From Limisphaerales bacterium (GTDB taxonomy: Bacteria; Verrucomicrobiota; Verrucomicrobiia; Limisphaerales; BOG-1460): a stretch of DNA of 52,935 nt. A program made the translations under genes and the position numbers. The stretch spans positions 1 to 52,935 of the forward strand of contig PLQC01000043.1 in NCBI GenBank assembly GCA_003159675.1, given 5' to 3'. Positions 13,854-21,382 of the stretch are shown here, piece after piece. Within the stretch, counting starts at the first letter, position 1, and every line of letters begins with the position of its first letter. The notes beneath the pieces are model-generated. The model saw only the letters and a program-made list of their open reading frames with translations, was not told the DNA's origin and did not search any database.

Positions 13854-14249
13854 TCATTCGTTCCGGAGTGTTTCTTTCCCGAGCACTGTCCACGCCCAAG
13901 CGAAGAGGATCAGAAAGAGGAGATCGGCAATGCAAAATGGCTTCCACATGCCCGGGAGTCCGGCGGTAAACCAGTGGAACAAGACCACCCCACAGTAGGA
14001 CAGCTTTAAGAGGATGCCGTAAGGTATGAGGTTTCGATTCTTGACAGGATTCACGGCGATGGCCACGAACATAACCGCAAAGACCATCAGCAAGGCGGCC
14101 GGAAACTGCACGTAGCCCGGGTGGTTCGGTGGAATTACGCCCAACCACTGGAACAGCGCACCGCTTCCAAACAGAAAAGCGGCCCCAAGTAACCCGTCGT
14201 ATATGGCCGAAACAATGAATAGCGCTGTAATCGCTCGCTTTGTTCTCAT
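13854..14249 (-). CDS. Four-helix membrane protein, last gene of the radical SAM operon
   Basis: A 131-residue protein with four predicted membrane spans (about 8-30, 46-66, 74-95 and 103-122) and short loops. It is not a family I can name with certainty. Its ATG overlaps the stop codon of the radical SAM gene in an ATGA junction, so it is translationally coupled to that enzyme. The small size, hydrophobicity and tight coupling suggest it forms or serves a membrane complex with the enzyme's product (inference). Confidence 0.75.
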   Translation of the reverse strand: MRTKRAITALFIVSAIYDGLLGAAFLFGSGALFQWLGVIPPNHPGYVQFPAALLMVFAVMFVAIAVNPVKNRNLIPYGILLKLSYCGVVLFHWFTAGLPGMWKPFCIADLLFLILFAWAWTVLGKETLRNE

Positions 14250-15574
14250 GTCTGTGGTCCTTTCGTGTGACGCTGATCCCTGATGGCGCGTTTGAAGCGG
14301 CTTCTGCGCCAGTTTGTGAACTCCTCGCTGTACAACCCGACGGCCAGCTTCTTGAACCCGTCGTGCAGTTCCTGCACCGACATGTTAGTGGGCTTGAAGT
14401 TGATATCGAACAATGTGCATTTCTTCCAGTTCCGCGGTTCGAGCAATCTGTTCTCCCGTTCCAAGCGCGCGTAGAGCGGGGTGCCCGGGAAAGGCGTCAT
14501 GAGCGTGACTTGAACCTCGTACAGTTCAGCCTCCCTCACAAAAGCAAAGACCTGATCGAAGATGTCGGCTGTATGCCCGTCGAGACCGATCATAAAACAC
14601 CCGTTCACTGTAATGCCATGGGATTGTATCGTGCGAATCGCTTCTTTGTAGTGTGGGAACTTCTTGAACTTCCAGTCGTTGCGCAGTTCAAGTCCATGCA
14701 GACCTGATTCGGTCGGACTCTCCAACCCGATCAACACCTGCGCGCATCCGGTCTCCCGCATGAGGTCGAGCTGTTCTTCATCGTCGGCAATGGAGATGTC
14801 GGTTTCTGCAAACCATTTGAGACCTTTCCCCTTGAGCGGCTTCAAAAGCTCCTTGCAGTACGAGTGATTGACGAAACTGTTGTCGTCGGCAAACTCGATG
14901 AATGGACGGTGCCAGATCGCGAGAATTCGACCGATTTCTTCCAGCACTTTGGCCACAGGCTTTTGCTTGTACTTGTGCGTGAGCATGACCGAACTGGCAC
15001 AGAACTCACAATGATGAGGACAACCTCGGCTGGTTTGAACAGTCAGTCGGTTGTATTTCGAGATGTCGAGCAATTCAAATGCGGGCATGGGTGCAGTAGC
15101 CAAATCGTACCCGTTGGCGTCCGCGCGGTAGTATTGTTGCAAGTGGCCACGTTCGGCATCTTCCAGCACCTGCAGCCACAGTGATTCTCCTTCACCGATG
15201 GCAACAGCATCGCAGTGTTGGGCCGCTTCGTCAGGGAGGGCGGTAACGTGCGGTCCTCCCATGACGGTCGGAACCCCAATCGCCCTAAACCGCCGGGCCA
15301 GCGCGTATGCCTCGTCAATCTGTGCGCTGTAGGAGGAGATGGCCGCCAAGTCAAGACCGCTCGGCAGAGAAGCGAGGAGGTTCACGTCCGGCACCTCGAC
15401 ATAGTGCACGCTATGTCGGGCAGGGGTCATCCCCGCCAGGGTCAGCAGACCGAGACTTGGCAAGGACGCGATGGTCTTGCTTCTCTCCACAAACCCCGGC
15501 AGCGTAAGACCTAGCCGAAGCAGTTCTGCGTCACAGACTCGTATACCGCTCATTGGAAACAGACCGATGTTCAT
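14246..15574 (-). CDS. B12-binding-domain radical SAM enzyme
   Basis: A 442-residue enzyme. The N-terminal half (about 1-150) is a Rossmann-like B12-binding type domain (VEVPDVNLLASLP, VPTVMGGPHVTALPDEA, AVAIGEGE). The radical SAM barrel follows with the 4Fe-4S motif TSRGCPHHCEFC (Cys185, 189, 192) and GLESPTESG. The C-terminus has FPGTPLYARLERENRLL, common in cobalamin-dependent radical SAM proteins such as BchE-like cyclases, lipid methylases and hopanoid enzymes. No His of the DxHxxG cobalamin motif is visible, so B12 binding is uncertain. ATG 15574 was chosen; it overlaps the stop of the upstream membrane gene (ATGA). Flanking membrane proteins suggest a lipid substrate (inference). Confidence 0.88.
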   Translation of the reverse strand: MNIGLFPMSGIRVCDAELLRLGLTLPGFVERSKTIASLPSLGLLTLAGMTPARHSVHYVEVPDVNLLASLPSGLDLAAISSYSAQIDEAYALARRFRAIGVPTVMGGPHVTALPDEAAQHCDAVAIGEGESLWLQVLEDAERGHLQQYYRADANGYDLATAPMPAFELLDISKYNRLTVQTSRGCPHHCEFCASSVMLTHKYKQKPVAKVLEEIGRILAIWHRPFIEFADDNSFVNHSYCKELLKPLKGKGLKWFAETDISIADDEEQLDLMRETGCAQVLIGLESPTESGLHGLELRNDWKFKKFPHYKEAIRTIQSHGITVNGCFMIGLDGHTADIFDQVFAFVREAELYEVQVTLMTPFPGTPLYARLERENRLLEPRNWKKCTLFDINFKPTNMSVQELHDGFKKLAVGLYSEEFTNWRRSRFKRAIRDQRHTKGPQT

Positions 15575-15948
15575 AGATTGATGATCCTCCAGACAAACAG
15601 GGCGATGCCGACGGTGACCGACATGGCCGGAATGAAAAACAGGTTGCGGAAGGCTGGCTTCCACGCGGACAAGTAGCAGACCGCAGGCATGGTGACCGCC
15701 CCCACGATCAACAGGATGGCAGTCCTCTGAAATCCGGCGTCAAGGCCCAGCGTTCTTGAGGTCAGGGCGAATGAGAGATTGATGAAGCCAATGCCGAAGA
15801 AAGCGATGTGCGCCAGCCGAATCATCCGCCGTTGCCACGAGGCGTAACCACCGAGCCAGTCGCTGTTATGGAAAAACAGGCCGGGAATCGCACCCGCAAG
15901 GCAACCCAGCAGGATCCCGACCCATGCCACCTGTATGTTTATCATCAT
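15571..15948 (-). CDS. Small membrane protein, first gene of the radical SAM operon
   Basis: About 125 residues with four hydrophobic spans (VAWVGILLGCLAGAIPGLFF, IAFFGIGFINLSFALT, TAILLIVGAVTMPAVCYL, FFIPAMSVTVGIALFVW). ATG 15948 is used; a TTG at 15963 would add five residues. Its end overlaps the radical SAM start by an ATGA. I do not recognise the family. A strong imperfect hairpin lies just upstream (15975-16043), probably in the promoter or leader. Confidence 0.7.
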   Translation of the reverse strand: MMINIQVAWVGILLGCLAGAIPGLFFHNSDWLGGYASWQRRMIRLAHIAFFGIGFINLSFALTSRTLGLDAGFQRTAILLIVGAVTMPAVCYLSAWKPAFRNLFFIPAMSVTVGIALFVWRIINL

Positions 15949-15974
15949 TGCGCTAATGTCCAATATGGGTCATC

Positions 15975-19142: not shown

Positions 19143-19442
19143 TTAGTAGCGCCGGCTGTACTCGCGGCGTCCGGCACCGCCGGATGGGCGTTCGGTCTTC
19201 GGCCGGGCTTCATTGACCGTGAGGTTCCGACCATCGAGCGTGGAACCGTTGAGCGCGTCAACGGCCTTCTGCGCCTCTTCGGCCGAACTCATGGTTACGA
19301 AGCCGAAGCCGCGCGGACGGCCGGTTTCACGGTCCGTCATCAGGTTGGCTTCGACCACCGTGCCATGGGCAGTGAAGGCGTCTTGCAGATCATTTTCGGT
19401 GGTGTTGAACGAAAGGTTCCCTACGAATAATTTAGTGTTCAT
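19143..19442 (-). CDS. RRM-domain RNA-binding protein (Rbp-like), copy 1
   Basis: A 99-residue single-RRM protein. RNP2 is KLFVGNLSF at the N-terminus and RNP1 is RGFGFVTM near residues 44-51; a glycine/arginine-rich tail (GGAGRREYSRRY) follows. Bacterial Rbp proteins of this type, known in cyanobacteria and other phyla, bind RNA and are often cold-induced. It has a conserved 81-bp leader (19484-19564), a promoter-like pair of boxes behind that, and its own terminator. The second copy is at 21080. The genes nearby (IF3, bS21, RluA) are all RNA or translation related. Confidence 0.94.
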   Translation of the reverse strand: MNTKLFVGNLSFNTTENDLQDAFTAHGTVVEANLMTDRETGRPRGFGFVTMSSAEEAQKAVDALNGSTLDGRNLTVNEARPKTERPSGGAGRREYSRRY

Positions 19443-21079: not shown

Positions 21080-21382
21080 CTACCGATTGGAGCGGCCTTC
21101 GCCGCCATAACCGCGGCCGCCGTCCGAACGTTCCTCGCGCGGGCGGGCTTCGTTGACCGTCAGCGCGCGGCCTTTCCAGTCCTTGCCATTCAAGGCGAGG
21201 ATGGCGGCCTTGGCCCCTTCCTCGGTGTTCATGGTGGCGAAAGCGAACCCGCGAGCACGCCCGGTGACTTTATCCATGATGACATTGATCTCGTTCACGG
21301 GACCGTGCTTTGAAAGCATGTCACGGAGGTCGGTTTCGGTGACGTCGAAGGAAAGATTCCCGACGTATAGTTTTGTGCTCAT
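21080..21382 (-). CDS. RRM-domain RNA-binding protein (Rbp-like), copy 2
   Basis: A 100-residue single-RRM protein with RNP2 KLYVGNLSF, RNP1 RGFAFATM and a Gly/Arg tail (GGRGYGGEGRSNR). It is similar along its length to copy 1. The leader at 21419-21499 matches that of copy 1. The next gene upstream is rpsU; an rbp gene next to rpsU is a known cyanobacterial arrangement associated with cold induction. Expected to act as an RNA chaperone in the cytoplasm. Confidence 0.94.
   Translation of the reverse strand: MSTKLYVGNLSFDVTETDLRDMLSKHGPVNEINVIMDKVTGRARGFAFATMNTEEGAKAAILALNGKDWKGRALTVNEARPREERSDGGRGYGGEGRSNR

Follow-up and report, generated by a model that had tools for sequence, protein, structure and literature searches.

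A cassette of three overlapping genes

We analyzed a 52,935-nucleotide stretch of a Limisphaerales bacterium within the Verrucomicrobiota (contig PLQC01000043.1 of assembly GCA_003159675.1), referred to here in its full length as the window, in which a B12-binding radical S-adenosylmethionine (SAM) enzyme is encoded between two membrane proteins, M1 and M2. The three genes lie on the minus strand in the order M1, enzyme, M2 (Table 1). M1 ends in ...ATCAATCTATGA, within which the ATG at 15574 starts the enzyme, and the enzyme in turn ends in ...CAGACATGAG, which holds the ATG of M2 at 14249. Both junctions read ATGA, as stated in the original prediction, which was made from the sequence alone. 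The fixed stoichiometry that it drew from them exceeds the data, as coupling by overlap suggests co-synthesis and not a ratio. The overlaps are not due to chance, because four-base overlaps recur in relatives from other phyla.

Table 1. Positions of the cassette genes, their junctions and the enzyme domains in the window, and of the M1-repeat protein at three other loci (L numbers)
Feature	Position	Strand	Description
M1	15571-15948	minus	four-helix membrane protein; ATG at 15948 or 15945, TTG at 15963 possible
B12-binding radical SAM enzyme	14246-15574	minus	442 residues
M2	13854-14249	minus	four-helix membrane protein, 131 residues
ATGA overlap, M1 stop/enzyme start	15571-15574	minus	read from sequence
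ATGA overlap, enzyme stop/M2 start	14246-14249	minus	read from sequence
B12-binding (Rossmann-type) domain, residues 38-131	15182-15463	minus	PF02310, 3.9e-10
Radical SAM core, residues 180-345	14540-15037	minus	PF04055, 3.2e-15
CPHHCEFC, C-x3-C-x2-C iron-sulfur motif, residues 185-192	14999-15022	minus	sequence
Truncated DUF4070 (PF13282), residues 365-437	14264-14482	minus	3.1e-8, first 71 of 144 positions
M1-repeat protein	L084:9430-10659, L092:4820-6049, L102:9505-10737		repeated M1-like units

Searching the GTDB species genomes with an enzyme alignment retrieved 482 relatives, the best 80 of which were kept for locus counts. Profile searches placed M1 or the M1-repeat protein next to the enzyme on the same strand in 72 of these 80 loci, the repeat protein replacing M1 in three of them (L084, L092 and L102). 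Four loci have an M2-family protein upstream instead of M1 (L096, L101, L113 and L133), three have no recognised partner (L082, L126 and L134) and one, L100, lies at a contig edge with 129 bp upstream. Conservation of the partners with the enzyme, a test set beforehand, did not refute the prediction, with M1 and/or M2 in 76 of the 80 loci and M2 the less constant of the two. The junctions were counted in the 75 loci with an intact enzyme frame, leaving out five enzyme frames (L056, L062, L097, L101 and L123) and three of 47 M2 frames (L062, L079 and L124) that are cut or broken; the starts were picked by a script that favours ATG, a ribosome-site-like motif and the aligned start, which makes the gap counts approximate. 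M1 is upstream of the enzyme in 65 of the 75, with a four-base overlap in 46 (43 ATGA, 3 GTGA). M2 is downstream in 37 and upstream in five, and 21 of the 37 enzyme-M2 junctions overlap by four bases (15 ATGA, 5 GTGA, 1 TTGA). An apparent in-frame enzyme-M2 fusion at L093 spans a run of N and was therefore not counted as such; the locus stays among the 37, although its junction is lost in these letters. A broken enzyme copy, split over two frames, was seen at L054:2196-3576 (G020:C100).

The same association was evident closer to the window. Among 58 genomes of the same order (own included), M1 occurs in nine, that of the window among them, always together with a close copy of the enzyme on one contig, and M2 in the window's own genome only; the lack of M2 conservation that this suggested was overturned by the wider GTDB scan. 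Among 387 genomes of the phylum, which are mutually related so that counts are not independent events, M1 was found in 13 and the enzyme (E <= 1e-90) in 18 that include all 13. In every one of the 13, M1 adjoins the enzyme match (within about 250 bp). M2 matches (E <= 1e-5) occur in 12 of the 387 genomes, four of them adjoining the enzyme. Judged by record titles, carriers belong to the Planctomycetota, Kiritimatiellota, Lentisphaerota, Verrucomicrobiota, Acidobacteriota, Nitrospirota, Bacteroidota, Calditrichota, Omnitrophota, Zixibacteria, Krumholzibacteriota, Eisenbacteria, Gemmatimonadota, Hydrogenedentota, Rhodothermota, Thermodesulfobacteriota and Pseudomonadota; most are metagenome-assembled genomes (MAGs), where single binning errors are possible, and the isolates among them include Pontiella sulfatireligans, Stieleria sedimenti and Rhodopirellula.

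Phylogenetic analysis of 90 family rows and 12 paralogs, by a quick method and with long branches flagged (including L051, L160 and several paralogs), grouped the M1-linked enzymes and a few M1-less basal rows (L049-L051) into one clade of 90 rows with a support of 100. This clade stands apart from the 12 paralogs, two of which come from the window's own genome and have DUF4070 almost complete. The tree holds no verified HpnP (hopanoid C-2 methylase) or HpnP-like sequence. The window enzyme is nearest to that of a Lentisphaerae MAG (L091, 85% identity) and next to records from Pirellulales, Acidobacteria, Kiritimatiellae and Nitrospirae, and is distant from those found within its own order (L042-L048). 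This grouping with foreign phyla points to a probable horizontal transfer of the cassette. Plasmid-borne copies were considered and rejected: M1 had no match on plasmids, and the enzyme matches on 100 plasmid records were all below 60% identity. The cassette is real and widespread, and its conservation, gene overlap and separate enzyme clade are established.

The enzyme and its membrane partners

The C-x3-C-x2-C motif and Rossmann N-domain of the original prediction were both recovered, the former as CPHHCEFC, whose three cysteines are invariant in an alignment of 10 enzyme sequences, and the latter as the predicted cobalamin-binding domain PF02310 (40.1 bits against a cut-off of 32.1). The radical SAM core PF04055 scored 57.1 bits (cut-off 29.5). 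DUF4070 is truncated in the five scanned family members that match it (59-71 of 144 positions), whereas the two paralogs of the window's own genome cover 135-139 positions, the last part being hydrophobic as judged by eye.

The scores for named NCBIfam families were far below their cut-offs: HpnJ 90.3 bits (577.6), PhpK 85 (600), BchE 84.6 (481.35), the lipid radical SAM model TIGR04072 64.4 (360), ApyD, a radical SAM model for ribosomally synthesized and post-translationally modified peptides (RiPPs), 62.2 (750) and HpnR 56.5 (650). The enzyme is therefore not a member of the HpnJ, PhpK or BchE families, which match it over the radical SAM core, as fellow radical SAM enzymes. A second test set beforehand, whether it clusters with a characterised family, did not refute the prediction either; no NCBIfam score came near its cut-off, and its clade is apart from the 12 paralogs in the tree described above. 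PMC10697835 assigns B12-binding, radical SAM and DUF4070 domains to HpnP and to HpnP-like proteins alike, and describes the HpnP-like clades as uncharacterised and activity as confirmed only for several HpnP-clade proteins. The cassette enzyme has the same three domains; it differs from HpnP in that only half of DUF4070 is present, membrane partner genes recur beside it and few cassette carriers (5/26) have a strong squalene-hopene cyclase match. PMC11868695 deals with Mss, Tes and related radical SAM enzymes of membrane-spanning lipids, which also act on lipid chains and are reported from some phyla that carry the cassette; they are described as coupling chains.

AlphaFold2 models of both M1 (pLDDT 94.8, pTM 0.84) and M2 (pLDDT 96.3, pTM 0.87) have four helices, and neither protein matched Pfam or NCBIfam, in keeping with the prediction of four-helix partners of no placeable family. 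Repeating the Pfam searches at E up to 10 still gave no match for M1 and one chance-level row for M2 (E 2.1). Foldseek found no significant match in the PDB for either model, a result that excludes no family. The residues of M1 that are invariant in 64 aligned sequences, numbered from the ATG at 15945, are W8, G22, W30, G33, R39, R40, R43, L44, H46, N56, M86, P87, C90 and F103. Its model aligned best with four helices of haem-copper oxidase subunit I (6wti; Z 11.1, rmsd 2.7, 117 residues), next with the haem-b styrene oxide isomerase (8pnu; Z 11.0) and then with MAPEG-type enzymes (Z 9). The first two share a four-helix membrane topology with M1, but according to the tool unrelated helical bundles reach a Z of about 13, above the value of about 11 for M1. 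A His in helix 2 of M1 is conserved, and the haem ligand of styrene oxide isomerase is H58 (PMC11374702). Homology of M1 to haem-copper oxidase was rejected for want of profile support: the comparison with COX1-family profiles found no sequence relationship, while the positive control, the M1-repeat protein, was matched. The M1 profile gave chance-level matches only against PDB sequences, and comparison of M1 with M2 gave no support for homology between the two.

M2 has the consensus PPNHxGYVQFPAALL...NRNLIPYGILLKxSYC, and its profile found no matches among PDB sequences. Its model aligned with several chains of VKOR-type four-helix quinone reductases at Z 6.7-8.8, but a designed bundle and tetraspanins scored higher (Z 11.6-12.3). 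M2 belongs to a looser superfamily, with weak M2-like matches in three 301-residue proteins (L156:5206-6111, L157:1286-2191 and L164:4795-5700) in which the M2-like domain is fused to a C-terminal AhpC-TSA_2 redox domain, above the Pfam cut-off in L156 and just below it in the other two. We know of no name for this pairing. An intact orphan M2, 75.6% identical to that of the window, lies at L155:8273-8665 (G183:C58) with cupin, UbiA prenyltransferase and SPASM radical SAM genes in its vicinity, in a genome where neither M1 (E <= 1e-5) nor the enzyme (E <= 1e-90) was detected. A broken M2 copy with two in-frame stops was seen at G209:C223:2037-2396.

Other membrane proteins accompany the enzyme in some loci. 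The M1-repeat protein (409-410 residues), downstream of the enzyme in three Pirellulaceae genomes (L084, L092 and L102), contains two clear M1-like units (in L102, i-E 2e-12 and 8e-11) besides a weak third, and its size fits the range of a 12-helix protein. The His is lost from its middle unit, and the L102 protein had no matches among PDB sequences. A third membrane family of about 400 residues, c15, lies by the enzyme in L049, L050, L051, L058, L090, L161 and L163; its profile was built from six members including a fusion at L053, so that only L051, L058 and L090 count as independent hits of the profile. In that fusion (L053:5970-8129) c15 is joined to a radical SAM core in place of the B12-binding domain, on one MAG contig that could reflect an assembly effect.

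Genes in the vicinity of the cassettes

We then considered the genes found around the cassettes. Proteins combining MFS, PlsC and AMP-ligase domains, or parts of them, occur in seven Kiritimatiellota loci (L086, L098, L104, L106, L111, L117 and L120) and, separately, at L089, L134 and L103 (about 2 kb downstream), and a PlsC-AMP-ligase protein is found at L049; these domains were Pfam-checked in L120, L106, L089, L103, L134 and L049 and assigned by BLAST clustering only elsewhere. CdsA followed by PlsC is present at L119, PAP2_3 at L047 and FA_hydroxylase, with OlsE as its best NCBIfam model (below cut-off), at L045. The neighbours at L105 are type III polyketide-synthase-like, acyl-CoA dehydrogenase and CMAS-like genes. 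The commonest Pfam families among 118 same-strand neighbours were AMP-binding, Aminotran_1_2, DUF2157, Hydrolase_4 and Abhydrolase_6 (six each), followed by Acyltransferase, GDYXXLXY and Palm_thioest (five each); for several of these, most members are from the Kiritimatiellota. Neighbour clustering gave no recurring small-gene family besides M1 and M2, with gene calls of at least 45-50 residues, a limit that shorter precursors could escape.

A GNAT acetyltransferase fused to a pyridoxal phosphate (PLP)-dependent domain lies beside six cassettes (L094:5879-7639, L121:1807-3651 and four relatives). The idea that this fusion is a serine palmitoyltransferase/ceramide synthase of sphingolipid synthesis was dropped, the PLP half being HisC/CobD-like in L094 and L121. 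A sigma-54 activator family is divergent upstream of the cassette in 11 loci (L129:3755-5239 and 10 relatives); the L129 protein, the one member checked, has RtcR as its best NCBIfam model, far below cut-off. In the window itself, the cassette is preceded by a gene of the beta-lactamase family (PF00144) at a gap of 529 bp and followed by a convergent DUF554 gene at a gap of 225 bp. Two small RNA-recognition-motif proteins lie near each other elsewhere in the window, at 19143-19442 (RRM_1, 3e-24) and at 21080-21382 (assigned by sequence similarity alone).

A candidate role in membrane-lipid modification

With confidence that we put at about even, we read the enzyme, with M1 and M2 as its subunits in the membrane, as a membrane-tethered relative of HpnP-like methylases that modifies a membrane lipid, probably by C-methylation. 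Action at the membrane is strongly suggested, because c15 adjoins or is fused to the enzyme and M1-repeat proteins occur. We infer the lipid from the recurrence of acyl-lipid genes as neighbours and from the conserved membrane partners, and the methylation from domain kinship only, which is a point against this reading. Several other observations weigh against it as well. M1 went undetected in five of the 18 enzyme-bearing genomes of the phylum and is absent from eight of the 80 loci, and M2 is absent from about half of the loci, so that M2 cannot be essential for the core reaction. The lipid neighbours are weighted by one clade, the Kiritimatiellota, whereas most other cassettes stand by themselves with unrelated genes around them; Aminotran_1_2 and DUF2157 are as common as the lipid-type families, and the argument from neighbours was formed after viewing them, without a formal background comparison. 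Published profiles of two cultured carriers, Pontiella sulfatireligans F21 (L086; PMC7356697) and strain JC639 (PMC12254169), which we take to be L102 from the shared strain number, give no unusual major fatty acid among acids above 5%.

HpnP acts on hopanoids by a radical and methylcobalamin mechanism, and is the nearest described relative of the enzyme. In our reading, the three gene products would form a membrane-bound complex in which M1 and M2 serve as a platform where the soluble enzyme docks and its active site receives a hydrophobic substrate. As in HpnP, SAM would be cleaved to a 5'-deoxyadenosyl radical, an unactivated carbon of a membrane lipid, most likely in an acyl (alkyl) chain, would lose a hydrogen, and methylcobalamin would supply the methyl group placed on that carbon. 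M1, M2 or c15 may have taken over the role of the second half of DUF4070, and its loss from the cassette family fits such a takeover by separate membrane proteins. The modified chain would belong to a remodelled membrane lipid, a substrate suggested by the recurrence of lysophospholipid acyltransferase/acyl ligase, hydrolase, CdsA-PlsC, PAP2_3 and fatty-acid hydroxylase genes among the neighbours.

Alternatively, M1 (and M2) could be electron-transfer subunits, for example haem- or quinone-binding four-helix bundles, that reduce the cluster or the cobalamin, for a substrate that need not be a lipid. This would accord with the invariant H46, M86 and C90 of M1, the overlay of its model on haem-copper oxidase subunit I and styrene oxide isomerase, the repetition of M1-like units within one protein and the fusion of distant M2-like domains to AhpC-TSA_2. 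However, the Z values of M1 are below those of unrelated bundles and MAPEG-type enzymes reach Z 9, the COX1 and Foldseek comparisons yielded nothing significant and the His is missing from the middle repeat unit, and we regard this role as unlikely. A RiPP-like or post-translational modification of a peptide or membrane protein seems very improbable. A Rhomboid-family protein occurs in three of the 118 neighbours, with one rhombosortase above its cut-off at L111, yet the weak ApyD score is far below its cut-off and no small-gene family other than M1 and M2 recurs among gene calls of at least 45-50 residues.

The original prediction had offered a membrane lipid or a quinone as substrate; its lipid half finds circumstantial support in the lipid neighbours, and its quinone half is less favoured. 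Menaquinone markers are present in 25 of 31 carriers (PF02621, of the futalosine pathway, in 19 and MenB above cut-off in six others), a squalene/phytoene synthase gene lies near L047 and the orphan M2 of L155 is near UbiA, all of which would suit an enzyme acting on a respiratory quinone or other isoprenoid. Against this, neither marker exceeds its cut-off in six carriers, four MAGs and two betaproteobacterial MAGs, where gaps could hide menaquinone genes; the four include G064 (L091), whose cassette is closest to that of the window, and the two include G081, with a MenB-like match of 287.6 of the 342.7 bits needed. The neighbour scan, moreover, has no quinone family in its 25 commonest. A quinone role is thus disfavoured, and we consider the quinone or isoprenoid alternative improbable. 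To a hopanoid methylase of the HpnP or HpnR type we give hardly any credence, and a general hopanoid role is likewise disfavoured. The three domains are those of HpnP, the window genome has two strong squalene-hopene-cyclase-type matches (5.3e-139 and 1.2e-66) and SQHop_cyclase_C (PF13243) exceeds Pfam's low cut-off in 19 of 26 carriers. However, seven of the 26 have no match, and matches better than 1e-60, a line of our own choice, occur in only five (own genome included); the best of the others is 1.2e-23 and many are partial, and in our judgement these weaker matches are not hopene cyclases. The cultured Pontiella and Stieleria/Rhodopirellula strains are among the carriers without a match better than 1e-60. 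DUF4070 is moreover truncated, and HpnR reached 56.5 of 650 bits.

Returning to lipid modification, the superfamily is a known one, and what is new, within the open PubMed Central (PMC) literature, is the recurrent pairing, through gene overlap, with membrane proteins that belong to no known family. That literature, outside which lie most subscription papers and all preprints, gave no recognised description of the enzyme family or the cassette, in agreement with the predicted undescribed pathway. As cultured isolates carry the cassette, its function is amenable to deletion genetics and lipidomics. In a bolder version, which we hold to be unlikely, a mobile cassette would add methyl branches to lipid chains within the bilayer and be a candidate for the extra methylation of branched and overly branched tetraethers, or else M1 would bind haem and the complex would be a redox-coupled radical enzyme in the membrane. 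The pathway of these extra methyl groups is termed 'not yet fully constrained' in PMC11868695, and the link of the cassette to them is speculation on our part. Branched and overly branched tetraether lipids serve as environmental proxies, and if the cassette does methylate lipid chains, it would provide a genetic marker for branched membrane lipids whose pathway is incompletely known.

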